This document shows, in pieces, positions 48,354-53,396 of a DNA stretch of 58,112 bases. The first letter of the stretch is position 1, and the number at the start of each line of letters is the position of its first letter. The stretch lies in the NCBI GenBank assembly GCA_014239275.1, contig JAAZZF010000001.1:1-58112 (forward strand), in the 5' to 3' direction. The notes under the pieces are model-generated. The model saw only the letters and a program-made list of their open reading frames with translations, was not told the DNA's origin and searched no databases. This stretch comes from Flavobacteriaceae bacterium. Its GTDB lineage: Bacteria; Bacteroidota; Bacteroidia; Flavobacteriales; Flavobacteriaceae. The position numbers and the translations under genes are program-made.

Positions 48354-49871
48354 TTATTCTAAGGAAGGAATTATAAAATTATCTAAATAAGGTGTCGAGT
48401 GGGCTTCTTTTAAATACTCTTCCAATTCAGAAACAACTTCCGGAAATTTTGAAGATAGATCATTAAGTTCTTTAGAATCTATAGATAAATCAAAAAGTTT
48501 AAGTTTAGATTTTTCCTTAAATAAATTCTTTTTAAGACCTTTCCACTTCCCCATTCTAATTGCCTGTAATCCTCCATTTGCTGGGAACTCCCAATACAAA
48601 TATTTATGTTTTTTTTGTTTCTGCCCTTTTAATTCAGGATAAAAACTAATACCATCGGTTTGAATTGGCGACTCAATACTAGCCACATCAAGAGCTGTTT
48701 CAAAAAAATCATAAAATGCGGAAATATGATCTGAAGAGGTTCCTGGTTCAATTTCATTTGGCCAACTTGCTATCATGGGAACCCTTATTCCTCCCTCATT
48801 CACACTTCCTTTCATCGTATTCCTGGAATTAACAAAAATTCCTGTACTGTTAAAAAATTCATAATCCACCTGTGGAACATGAGTAGGACCATTATCACTA
48901 GTAAAAATTATTAAGGTGTTTTCATACTCACCAATTTCCTTAAGTTTAGCAATAATTTCTCCAACTTGCTCGTCTAAATAAGAAATCATAGCAGCATAAG
49001 TGGCTCTTGGTGTCCTATTGGGGTAATATGATCTTCCAACATAAGGTTCCTCTTTACCAAACTTTTCGTTGTAATATTTAACCCAACCTTCAGGAGCTTG
49101 TAAAGGTAAATGTGGAAGAGGCGAAGCATAATAAAGAAAAAATGTATTCTTTTTATTTTGCTCAATAAAACTCAGAGCCTCATTGTGCATTAATGTAGGG
49201 GCATAATCGCTTTGATTATATTTCTTGTAGGATTCTTGATTATAAGGGTCTTTATCATCAAGAGTTTCATTCTTATTAACAATGTAATTATTTAGAATAT
49301 GTCTGTTTTCATTTCTCCATAAGTGAGTTGGATATAAAGTATGTGCTTGTCTTTGACAGTTATATCCATAAAAAAAATCAAAACCTTTTTTGTTTGGAAT
49401 ACTGTTTGTCATAGGTGCTCCTAAACCCCATTTTCCTACCATACCGGTTTTATAACCATTATCATTTAAAACTTTAGCAACTGTAACTATAGAATCTAAC
49501 AAAGGTCTTTGACCTTCTAAATTGGGATCATCAAACATTGCTTGAAAACTCCAAACATCCCCCCTCTCACTCCATTCGCCATTAGCTCTAATATGAGTAT
49601 TTCCCATATGCATTCCAGTCATCAATACACTTCTTGCTGGCGCACAAACTGGAGCTCCACTATAATGATTAGTGAATAACATTCCTGTTTTAGCCAAATT
49701 ATCAATATTAGGAGTTTCAATAAATTTTTGGCCATATACTCCAACCTCTCCATAGCCTAGGTCATCAGCTAAAATATATATAATATTAGGTTTTTCATTT
49801 TTGCTGTTTTCACATCCAAAAAAAGAAAAAATCAATAAGAAGAATAATACAGAATTAGTAAGAGATCTCAT
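48354..49871 (-). CDS. Type I (Cys-type) sulfatase lipoprotein
   Basis: Lipobox IFSFFGCENS; NIIYILADDLGYGEVGVYG; CAPARSVLMTG (CxPxR). Internal ATG 49871 gives the signal peptide, so the ORF-track start at 49931 is probably too long. Confidence 0.92.
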   Translation of the reverse strand: MRSLTNSVLFFLLIFSFFGCENSKNEKPNIIYILADDLGYGEVGVYGQKFIETPNIDNLAKTGMLFTNHYSGAPVCAPARSVLMTGMHMGNTHIRANGEWSERGDVWSFQAMFDDPNLEGQRPLLDSIVTVAKVLNDNGYKTGMVGKWGLGAPMTNSIPNKKGFDFFYGYNCQRQAHTLYPTHLWRNENRHILNNYIVNKNETLDDKDPYNQESYKKYNQSDYAPTLMHNEALSFIEQNKKNTFFLYYASPLPHLPLQAPEGWVKYYNEKFGKEEPYVGRSYYPNRTPRATYAAMISYLDEQVGEIIAKLKEIGEYENTLIIFTSDNGPTHVPQVDYEFFNSTGIFVNSRNTMKGSVNEGGIRVPMIASWPNEIEPGTSSDHISAFYDFFETALDVASIESPIQTDGISFYPELKGQKQKKHKYLYWEFPANGGLQAIRMGKWKGLKKNLFKEKSKLKLFDLSIDSKELNDLSSKFPEVVSELEEYLKEAHSTPYLDNFIIPSLE

Positions 49872-49948
49872 ATAATTATTTTTATAGTTGATCATAAAGA
49901 TCGTAAAAATAAAGAAACTCATCTTCATCAATTAAATAACACAATGAT

Positions 49949-51301: not shown

Positions 51302-52193
51302 AACTACTAGCTCAGGAAAAATACTAATGACTTCTGAATATGTAGTGTTAAAAGGAGCTTTGGCTTTAGCAATTCCTACAAGATTTAAACAATCATTAAT
51401 TTTTATTAAAAAAAAATCCAATAAATTGATTTGGAAAAGTTATGATTCAAAAAACAAAATTTGGTTTAATTGTGAATTTAATCTATCAAATCTTCATTTT
51501 ACTAATAGTAGCAATAGTAAAAAAGGAAAGGTTTTACAATCGATTTTATTATCAGCAAAAAAAATGAATTCATCTTTTTTATCAAGTGATTCTGGAGGAA
51601 TAGTTAAAACTAAACTTGATTTTCCAAATGATTGGGGTTTAGGCAGCTCTTCAACTTTAATAAACAATATTGCAAATTGGGCTAAAATTGATCCTTATAA
51701 ATTACTTTGGTCCAATTATAAAGGAAGTGGATATGATATTGCTTGTGCTAAAAGTAAAACTCCATTACTTTATAAACTAGAAAATAGCTTGCCAATAATT
51801 CAGGAGACTTCTTTTAAACCAGTTTTTTCAGACAATTTATTTTTTATTCATTTAAATAAAAAACAAGAAACAAATAATCAAATTAAAATTTTTAATGCTA
51901 AAAAAATTTCTTCTAATGTCATACTGGCCTTTTCTCAATTGACGAAAAAGTTTATTTCTTCAAATAATCTAATTGAATTTCAGAGTTGCATAAAAAAACA
52001 TGAATTACTTCTTTCAAAAGAACTTAAAACAAAGCCTATTAAAGAAATTTTATTTAAAGATTACAAGGGTGAGATTAAAAGTTTAGGTGCTTGGGGTGGA
52101 GATTTTATTTTAGCTGCTGGACCTATAGACTCTCCATCTTATTTTACTAAAAAAGGGTTTAAAACAATAATTCATTTTAAAAAAATGTTTTAA
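51291..52193 (+). CDS. GYDIA family GHMP kinase
   Basis: SGKILMTSEYVVLKGALALAIPTR; DWGLGSSSTLINNIANWA; GSGYDIACAKSKTP; overlaps HMGR 3' end. Confidence 0.93.
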   Translation: MDFKTTSSGKILMTSEYVVLKGALALAIPTRFKQSLIFIKKKSNKLIWKSYDSKNKIWFNCEFNLSNLHFTNSSNSKKGKVLQSILLSAKKMNSSFLSSDSGGIVKTKLDFPNDWGLGSSSTLINNIANWAKIDPYKLLWSNYKGSGYDIACAKSKTPLLYKLENSLPIIQETSFKPVFSDNLFFIHLNKKQETNNQIKIFNAKKISSNVILAFSQLTKKFISSNNLIEFQSCIKKHELLLSKELKTKPIKEILFKDYKGEIKSLGAWGGDFILAAGPIDSPSYFTKKGFKTIIHFKKMF

Positions 52194-52202
52194 AAAATGA
52201 GT

Positions 52203-52220
52203 TTGGCATGATTAATGCAA
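52203..52220 (+). promoter_or_regulatory. Sigma-54 (RpoN) -24/-12 promoter TTGGCATG-N4-ATGCAA
   Basis: TTGGCATGATTAATGCAA: GG at 52205-52206 and GC at 52217-52218 with the required 10-nt spacing; only two mismatches to TTGGCACG-N4-TTGCA. Confidence 0.65.
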
Positions 52221-52229
52221 CACTATTAA

Positions 52230-52297
52230 TACATAATATTTTTGGTTAGTTGTTGTTAAAACACCTCCGAGTTCTAAAACCGGGGGTGTTTTTTTTT
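52230..52297 (+). ncRNA. Candidate sigma-54-dependent small RNA (~68 nt) ending in an intrinsic terminator
   Basis: Predicted +1 12 nt after the -12 C; no ORF; terminator hairpin at 52258-52297; convergent intergenic location. Confidence 0.45.
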
Positions 52298-52298
52298 A
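52258..52298 (+). terminator. Strong intrinsic terminator
   Basis: AAACACCTCCG-agttctaaaac-CGGGGGTGTTT followed by T(8+); 11-bp stem with one G.U. Confidence 0.9.
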
Positions 52299-53396
52299 AG
52301 ACTTCACATCCATTACAGTTCTAAATCCAGTATGCATTGAACTTGAGTCTGGAGTGCTTTTCATTCTCATAGAATTTCGAAAACCACTACAATAAGAATC
52401 ATTACATAAAAAACTTCCGCCTCTCATAACTTTTTTTGGGCTATAAGGTTCCATAGGATCATAACTATTTTTTGGACCTTTAGGATTAATAGCCAATTTT
52501 TCTGAACTCATGTTGTAGTAATCTGAATGATACCAATCAGAACACCACTCCCAAACATTTCCGCCAAGATCATAAAATCCAAATCCATTGGGCTGAAAAG
52601 ATTTAACTGGAGCAGTGTAGTAAAACTTGTCTTTCATTTTATTATTTGAAGGAAATTTTCCCTCCCAAATATTAGCTTTTAATATGCCTTCATATACTGG
52701 TTCATTTCCCCAACTATATATATTGTTTATTAAACCCCCTCTTGATGCATATTCAAATTCTGCTTCCGTAGGCAATCTTTTACCTGTCCATTTACAGTAT
52801 GCAATTGCATCATCCCAACTAATATGAACTACAGGATGATTTCCCTTATTTTTTATATTACTATTTTTTCCAAAAGGACTTCTCCAATTGGTCTTTTTTT
52901 CCAACCTCCACCATTGAGTGTAATCGTTCAAATTTGTAACTTCAGTTTCATAAAAAATTAATGAGGCTGGCGACAATAAGCTATCATGAGGTTTTGGTGT
53001 TCCAGGAGGTACTATTTTTTTAATTTCATTCCAATCTATTGCCTTTTCAGCAGTTGTTATGTATCCTGTTGCATCTACAAATTCTTTAAATTGATCATTT
53101 GTAACTTCCGTTTCATCCATCCAAAATGAATTTACTATAACTTTATGTTTTGGAAACTCATCTTGTTTTGCCTCATTATTATCTCCACCCATTTCAAACT
53201 CTCCACCTTTAACAAAGATCATCCCATTAGTATTTCCAGATAAGGCAATTTCAATGTCATATGAATTTTCTGATAAATTTCTTGTGATAGTATTGCTTGG
53301 CATGCAACTATGATCTGATGACGCTTTAGGTTTTTTTGTAATTGTATCACAAGAAAAATAACATAAAAGAGAAAAAATAATAATTCTATGTTTCAT
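52296..53396 (-). CDS. Formylglycine-generating enzyme (SUMF1) family lipoprotein
   Basis: Lipobox SLLCYFSCDT; MIFVKGGEFEMGGDNNEAKQDEFPKHKVIVNSFWMDETEVTNDQF; RGGSFLCNDSYCSGFRNSMRMKSTPDSSSMHTGFR. Confidence 0.92.
   Translation of the reverse strand: MKHRIIIFSLLCYFSCDTITKKPKASSDHSCMPSNTITRNLSENSYDIEIALSGNTNGMIFVKGGEFEMGGDNNEAKQDEFPKHKVIVNSFWMDETEVTNDQFKEFVDATGYITTAEKAIDWNEIKKIVPPGTPKPHDSLLSPASLIFYETEVTNLNDYTQWWRLEKKTNWRSPFGKNSNIKNKGNHPVVHISWDDAIAYCKWTGKRLPTEAEFEYASRGGLINNIYSWGNEPVYEGILKANIWEGKFPSNNKMKDKFYYTAPVKSFQPNGFGFYDLGGNVWEWCSDWYHSDYYNMSSEKLAINPKGPKNSYDPMEPYSPKKVMRGGSFLCNDSYCSGFRNSMRMKSTPDSSSMHTGFRTVMDVKS

Follow-up and report, generated by a model that had tools for sequence, protein, structure and literature searches.

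The window analysed here, the whole stretch of 58,112 nucleotides from a Flavobacteriaceae bacterium (contig JAAZZF010000001.1), contains near its end two convergent genes, a + strand gene for a GHMP-type kinase without a Pfam match (the GYDIA kinase of the earlier note, end at 52193) and a - strand gene for an FGE-domain lipoprotein (end at 52296). The open reading frame list of the window holds no frame of at least 60 amino acids between them, in line with the earlier claim that the gap carries no + strand reading frame. A short putative peptide in the region (TTG GTT AGT TGT TGT TAA) was rejected, because its frame is lost in three related loci (L005, L008 and L055). It should also be noted that a sulfatase gene (48354-49931, - strand) lies near the lipoprotein gene (52296-53396, - strand), the FGE domain of which is of the sulfatase-activating type, with genes for HMG-CoA reductase and the GHMP-type kinase in between. 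The following features were assigned to the gap:

52203..52219, + strand: sigma-54 (-24/-12) promoter TTGGCATGATTAATGCA, read from the sequence, conserved in the genus, with rpoN and enhancer-binding proteins present in the genome
52231, + strand: predicted transcription start, an A, 25 nt past the -24 G, placed by promoter geometry; conservation starts here
52231..52257, + strand: 5' core ACAUAAUAUUUUUGGUUAGUUGUUGUU, candidate seed or protein-binding site, mostly single-stranded, nearly invariant in 21 loci and related to the family core UUUGGUUGGUUAGUU
52258..52297, + strand: intrinsic terminator, stem 52258-52269 / 52281-52292 plus a small inner stem, then a T-run, based on the fold, the homologues and covariation

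The promoter lies 9 nt past the stop codon of the kinase gene. Direct reading of TTGGCATGATTAATGCA bears out the description given earlier, i.e. a GG (52205-52206) and a GC (52217-52218) separated by 10 nt and two mismatches to TTGGCACG-N4-TTGCA. Taken alone, such a match in a single sequence would prove little, and it is not striking in the window, which contains 15 promoter matches with one mismatch versus 8.9 expected. The predicted RNA gene (52231-52297, about 67 nt) folds into one strong terminator hairpin of -19.7 kcal/mol (z about -3 to -3.5). The earlier note had described an 11-bp stem-loop with a T-run about 28 nt after the start; the hairpin and the T-run are indeed present, beginning at 52258, 27 nt past the predicted start, but the stem is larger, with 15 bp and one bulge. 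A consensus terminator scan of the window did not list this hairpin, probably because the bulged stem and the long loop fall outside the rules of the scan. As the FGE-like gene ends at 52296, its stop codon and the 3' end of the RNA overlap. A hairpin also forms when the - strand is folded, with a short T-run, and the element may additionally serve as terminator of the convergent gene.

Comparison with related genomes was performed after minus-strand loci had been reverse-complemented. The kinase is present in 21 of 22 genomes of the genus (window genome included), with identities down to 53%, and in 21/21 genomes it is followed by the unit of promoter, core and terminator. In these 21 loci TTTGGCA(C/T)G is invariant (promoter consensus TTTGGCACGATTAATGYA) and the 27-nt 5' core ACATAATATTTTTGGTTAGTTGTTGTT nearly so, whereas the nucleotides between promoter and start are variable. 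The spacer is 2 nt shorter in two genomes and 5 or 9 nt longer in other genera, yet the predicted start is always an A. The -24/-12 box is kept in 24 loci including the relatives, with the exception of one locus (L056) that has GG in place of G(C/T) at -12. A strong hairpin was found in all 24 homologues in the form of 21 distinct stems, which always pair and are followed by U's. Covariation analysis yielded 30 cells with two-sided changes versus 9.5 after shuffling, and a score of 0.64 versus 0.24; as the arms were trimmed by hand from the folds, their 100% pairing is partly by construction, and it is the two-sided changes that constitute the evidence. Thus, the stem sequence diverges while core and promoter are kept, which indicates a sequence constraint on the latter two and a purely structural constraint on the hairpin, and the conserved 5' core should therefore be the acting part of the RNA. 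A weak 5' hairpin within the core, proposed by RNAalifold, was without covariation support and was rejected. The earlier note had suggested an alignment across relatives to look for the -24/-12 dinucleotides and the hairpin, and both are kept in 21/21 loci of the genus.

The FGE gene was not detected beside the unit in four loci (L010, L019, L021 and L023), and the unit is therefore independent of this neighbour. Outside of the genus, the unit is located at the kinase/FGE locus in one genus (g151), while in another (g43) it lies away from the kinase, and is flanked by a thioredoxin gene on one side and a sensor-type gene on the other. When GTDB species were scanned for promoter plus core, 21 contigs were obtained, all from uncultured assemblies, labelled Flavobacteriaceae, Flavobacteriales, Cryomorphaceae (including BACL29 MAG-121220-bin8) or Bacteroidetes. 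The persistence of the unit without a detected FGE gene and at an unrelated locus supports, at the level of sequence comparison, the earlier proposal of a stand-alone RpoN-dependent sRNA. It also bears on the reading that the hairpin is just a bidirectional terminator common to the kinase and FGE genes and that the promoter match arose by chance; the convergent orientation of these genes and the - strand fold with its short T-run would fit, but the terminator sequence varies whereas promoter and core are invariant, so that this reading is already contradicted by the comparative data and is given almost no weight.

Transcription from a housekeeping sigma-A promoter was also considered, since TATTTTTG at 52237-52244 corresponds to the Bacteroidota -7 box TAnnTTTG and would place the RNA start near 52251. 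This 8-mer fits the motif of PMC9723704 and is invariant in the genus; however, the sole upstream TTTG is 31 nt off and thus too far away for a -33 box, conservation runs on beyond the box, and in the wider family TAnnTTTG is lost whereas the -24/-12 elements are kept, which makes a sigma-A transcript extremely improbable.

The earlier note had pointed to rpoN and an enhancer-binding protein as a check of the proposed promoter. Profile searches revealed rpoN (168 bits) and two enhancer-binding proteins (about 228 bits each) in the genome. One is encoded in the order miaB-EBP-lptE on a contig that also bears secG-groESL, and the other, of the response-regulator type, adjoins an mscS-like gene; the names of these neighbours, and of the genes with sigma-54 sites, were taken from sequence inspection. 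Genome-wide, the sigma-54 pattern occurs at 17 sites versus 3 for a mirror-image control, one of them 47 nt before groES and others before genes for an OmpA-like lipoprotein and a small lipoprotein. An unbiased screen covered 385 ortholog pairs taken from two further species; lon, dnaK and a gene for a TonB-type receptor were among the genes preceded by the best conserved sites, and site scores of 18-20 were reached by 7 of the 385 pairs and by none in the mirrored control. The sites predicted in this genus at groESL, lon and dnaK match the measured sigma-54 regulon of Flavobacterium psychrophilum, which comprises GroESL, Lon, DnaK, GrpE, HtpG, Skp, ClpB and the putative sRNA Rfp36 (PMC9723704), and according to a computational survey the sigma-54 targets of Flavobacteriia include chaperone genes (PMC12316311). 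Together, the comparison with relatives (21/21) and the genome-wide motif excess make the window promoter secure as a predicted site. A search for a shared inverted-repeat enhancer-binding site upstream yielded no convincing candidate; the AT-rich dyads seen in the loci of the genus were rejected, as they fall within the related 3' ends of the kinase genes.

A model of promoter plus RNA retrieved distant relatives bearing the core TTTTTTGGTTGGTTAGTT. The exact 15-mer TTTGGTTGGTTAGTT is present in 203 of 400 Flavobacteriaceae genomes and in 137 of 237 genera, often in 2-5 copies, and the reversed 15-mer is rare. Model R3 matched 273 of the 400 genomes at E<=0.01, but many of its weak matches are plain terminators, and for this reason the prevalence given here relies on the exact 15-mer and its control alone. 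Two core lineages were distinguished, GGUUGGUUAGUU and GGUUAGUUGUUG. The exact 15-mer is absent from the window copy; in a local alignment, the window core UUUUUGGUUAGUUGUUG differs from it by one substitution and one indel in the common stretch, and cores intermediate between the window and the family type were found at L055, L209 and L236. The GGUUGGUUAGUU family is defined by its core motif, a terminator immediately behind this motif and control by sigma-54, and the window copy has a related core, the terminator and the promoter. Judged by its sequence, the window sRNA is a divergent member of an undescribed and widespread sigma-54 RNA family, and the designation 'orphan' used earlier was wrong, as it is one of many members tied to the sigma-54 regulon. 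Rfam 15 searched at the gathering score gave no family match in the window or in 10 relatives, and the core string was not found in the bacterial sRNA papers of the literature searched.

A hairpin follows the core in 102 of 102 distinct copies read, part of which are biased because they were retrieved by a model that contains the promoter. Among the copies picked by the 15-mer only, an own sigma-54 site (score >=18, <=110 nt upstream) was found in 20 of 40, whereas shuffles predict 0.1; the remaining copies mostly occur in 3' UTRs, and 16 of them are no more than 40 nt away from a stop codon. Where the start of the host gene of a 3'-UTR copy was available, a sigma-54 promoter preceded it (14 of 14, versus 1.5% in shuffles and 17 of 1489 genes of a natural control); 31 host genes were tested, 17 of which, mostly on short loci where an internal ATG had been used, were set aside by judgement because the fetched DNA probably falls short of the true start. 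Host genes include those for SR-rich secreted proteins without a Pfam match, for fasciclins and for a DUF2383 protein, and further 3'-UTR copies are located behind stress genes such as clpB and the gene for a Dps-like ferritin. One genus (g7; L268, L324, L325) has tandem copies, in which a new -24/-12 element directly follows the preceding terminator.

These 3'-UTR copies raise the possibility that the window element acts solely in cis, in the stability or processing of the kinase mRNA, and has no role in trans. A read-through kinase mRNA would share the window terminator, and many family members are 3' UTRs; nevertheless, a sigma-54 promoter of its own separates the core from the kinase stop codon, and copies that have moved are kept without the kinase, so that a pure cis element is regarded as very improbable.

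Several further elements were encountered during these searches. Outside of the genus, the RNA-only model R1 mainly picked up a terminator 3' of an apparent mscL gene; these matches lack a sigma-54 box and were counted as false positives. In other Flavobacteriaceae (L054, L057-L068, L071-L077, L080; many genera), TGTTAAATAAATAACA..TGTTATTTGTTGTTAAAAAGCC plus a terminator lies directly 3' of this gene and looks like a conserved 3' UTR devoid of the sigma-54 box. A longer class of sigma-54 RNAs of about 110 nt (L337-L339, L341, L344, L346, L347, L349, L350, L353, L354, L364, L367) carries another conserved stretch, GTTTATTGAGTGGTTACTTTAAACTT, on the 5' side of the core, which may be a second functional site. 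At L209, L210, L217, L229 and L233-L235, a -24/-12-like sequence, TTCGGCACGAAANRTGA, resides inside the last codons of the gene for an SR-rich protein, 45-56 nt before the core. Finally, a locus from another family of the order (L216, reverse strand, about 1500-1630) has a clean sigma-54 site, TTTGGCACGGTATTTGAT, a non-coding stretch of about 100 nt and a strong terminator; it lacks the family core and is possibly another sigma-54 sRNA.

Comparative sequence analysis thus establishes the promoter, the core, the terminator, the family and its link to the sigma-54 regulon. We are fairly confident that the window carries a free-standing gene for an sRNA of about 67 nt, which would be transcribed by sigma-54 polymerase, aided by an enhancer-binding protein, up to the gene's own intrinsic terminator, and the core of which would act by mRNA pairing in a stress response. 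Protein or envelope stress would activate an enhancer-binding protein, and sigma-54 polymerase would then co-induce chaperones and proteases together with the core-bearing RNAs. The core would act in trans by base-pairing with mRNAs, most likely those of envelope proteins, as suggested by RybB/MicA and FopS, and pairing would lower translation of the targets. RybB/MicA have this effect in the sigma-E response of enteric bacteria, but in the present case Hfq would not be involved. The steps of base-pairing and repression of outer membrane proteins rest on analogy. A search of 22 genomes of the genus found no Hfq above the cut-off, which speaks against Hfq-dependence, and we infer an Hfq-independent RNA arm of the sigma-54 protein and envelope stress response.

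The invariant 5' core makes the antisense seed proposed in the earlier note plausible, but no target rose above chance. Near-perfect complements in 22 genomes included none that was conserved and did not exceed the control, duplex energies around 783 starts of one genome and in the 385 ortholog pairs were not above those of shuffled RNAs, and neither TonB receptors, only 5 of which were testable, nor secreted-like genes were enriched. The lack of targets in these screens makes a serious rival of the view that the core is a protein-binding module, which would tag or stabilise sigma-54 stress mRNAs in their 3' UTRs, while the free RNAs would be decoys that titrate the same RNA-binding protein, in a CsrB-like logic. 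An unchanged 15-mer in 137 genera, its presence on unrelated mRNAs of one regulon, the G/U-rich and largely single-stranded nature of the core, and the result of the Hfq search would all be in agreement with such a module, and the Bacteroides RRM protein RbpB binds short sRNAs (PMC11697453). However, no binding protein was identified here and an invariant core is equally expected of a seed with many targets, and we thus consider the protein-binding reading possible but rather unlikely.

The family of the window sRNA probably represents a regulon-wide RNA module, in which one core plus terminator ends both free sigma-54 sRNAs and the 3' UTRs of many sigma-54 stress mRNAs throughout the Flavobacteriaceae, so that the onset of sigma-54 activity would flood the cell with a common regulatory RNA signal, without Hfq. 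Sigma-54 governs a protein-quality and envelope stress regulon in this family of bacteria, and a short core conserved in 137 genera offers a handle on the post-transcriptional arm of this regulon and on regulation without Hfq. Free sRNAs and 3'-UTR copies of one module provide a natural comparison, and knowledge of this RNA family, which is absent from Rfam 15, would allow its annotation in genomes from marine and soil bacteria.

Several known systems share some of these properties. CpxQ and MicL are sRNAs that derive from the 3' UTRs of mRNAs induced by stress. The present family is similar in that candidate regulatory RNAs, which may be released by processing, are located at the 3' ends of putative stress mRNAs, and it differs in that one core is common to the 3' UTRs of several unrelated mRNAs and to free genes, all tied to sigma-54. 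Qrr, GlmY/GlmZ and CrcZ are sigma-54-dependent sRNAs of Proteobacteria with a sigma-54 promoter and an enhancer-binding protein. They resemble the window RNA in its predicted mode of expression, and differ from it in sequence, phylum, regulon and probably the partner protein. Stress sRNAs derived from 3' UTRs are treated in a review (PMC9438474), and the sigma-54-dependent GlmY in PMC6075780. RybB and MicA, sigma-E sRNAs of enteric bacteria (PMC1804206), are likewise short terminated RNAs under an alternative sigma factor of the envelope/protein stress response, beside chaperones and proteases; in contrast, the window RNA has a predicted sigma-54 promoter, Hfq was not found in its genus and no sequence relation was detected. 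FopS/GibS of Bacteroides thetaiotaomicron (PMC11697453), from the same phylum, are multicopy RNAs of about 65-70 nt with a conserved single-stranded 5' end plus terminator and no classical RNA chaperone; FopS, which targets susC mRNAs, has housekeeping sigma-ABfr promoters, whereas the window family has sigma-54 promoters. Lastly, compared by description only, Rfp36 of F. psychrophilum (PMC9723704, Table 2) is alike in being a putative regulatory RNA of the same bacterial family that is preceded by a sigma-54 motif, in its case a measured one (SM4).
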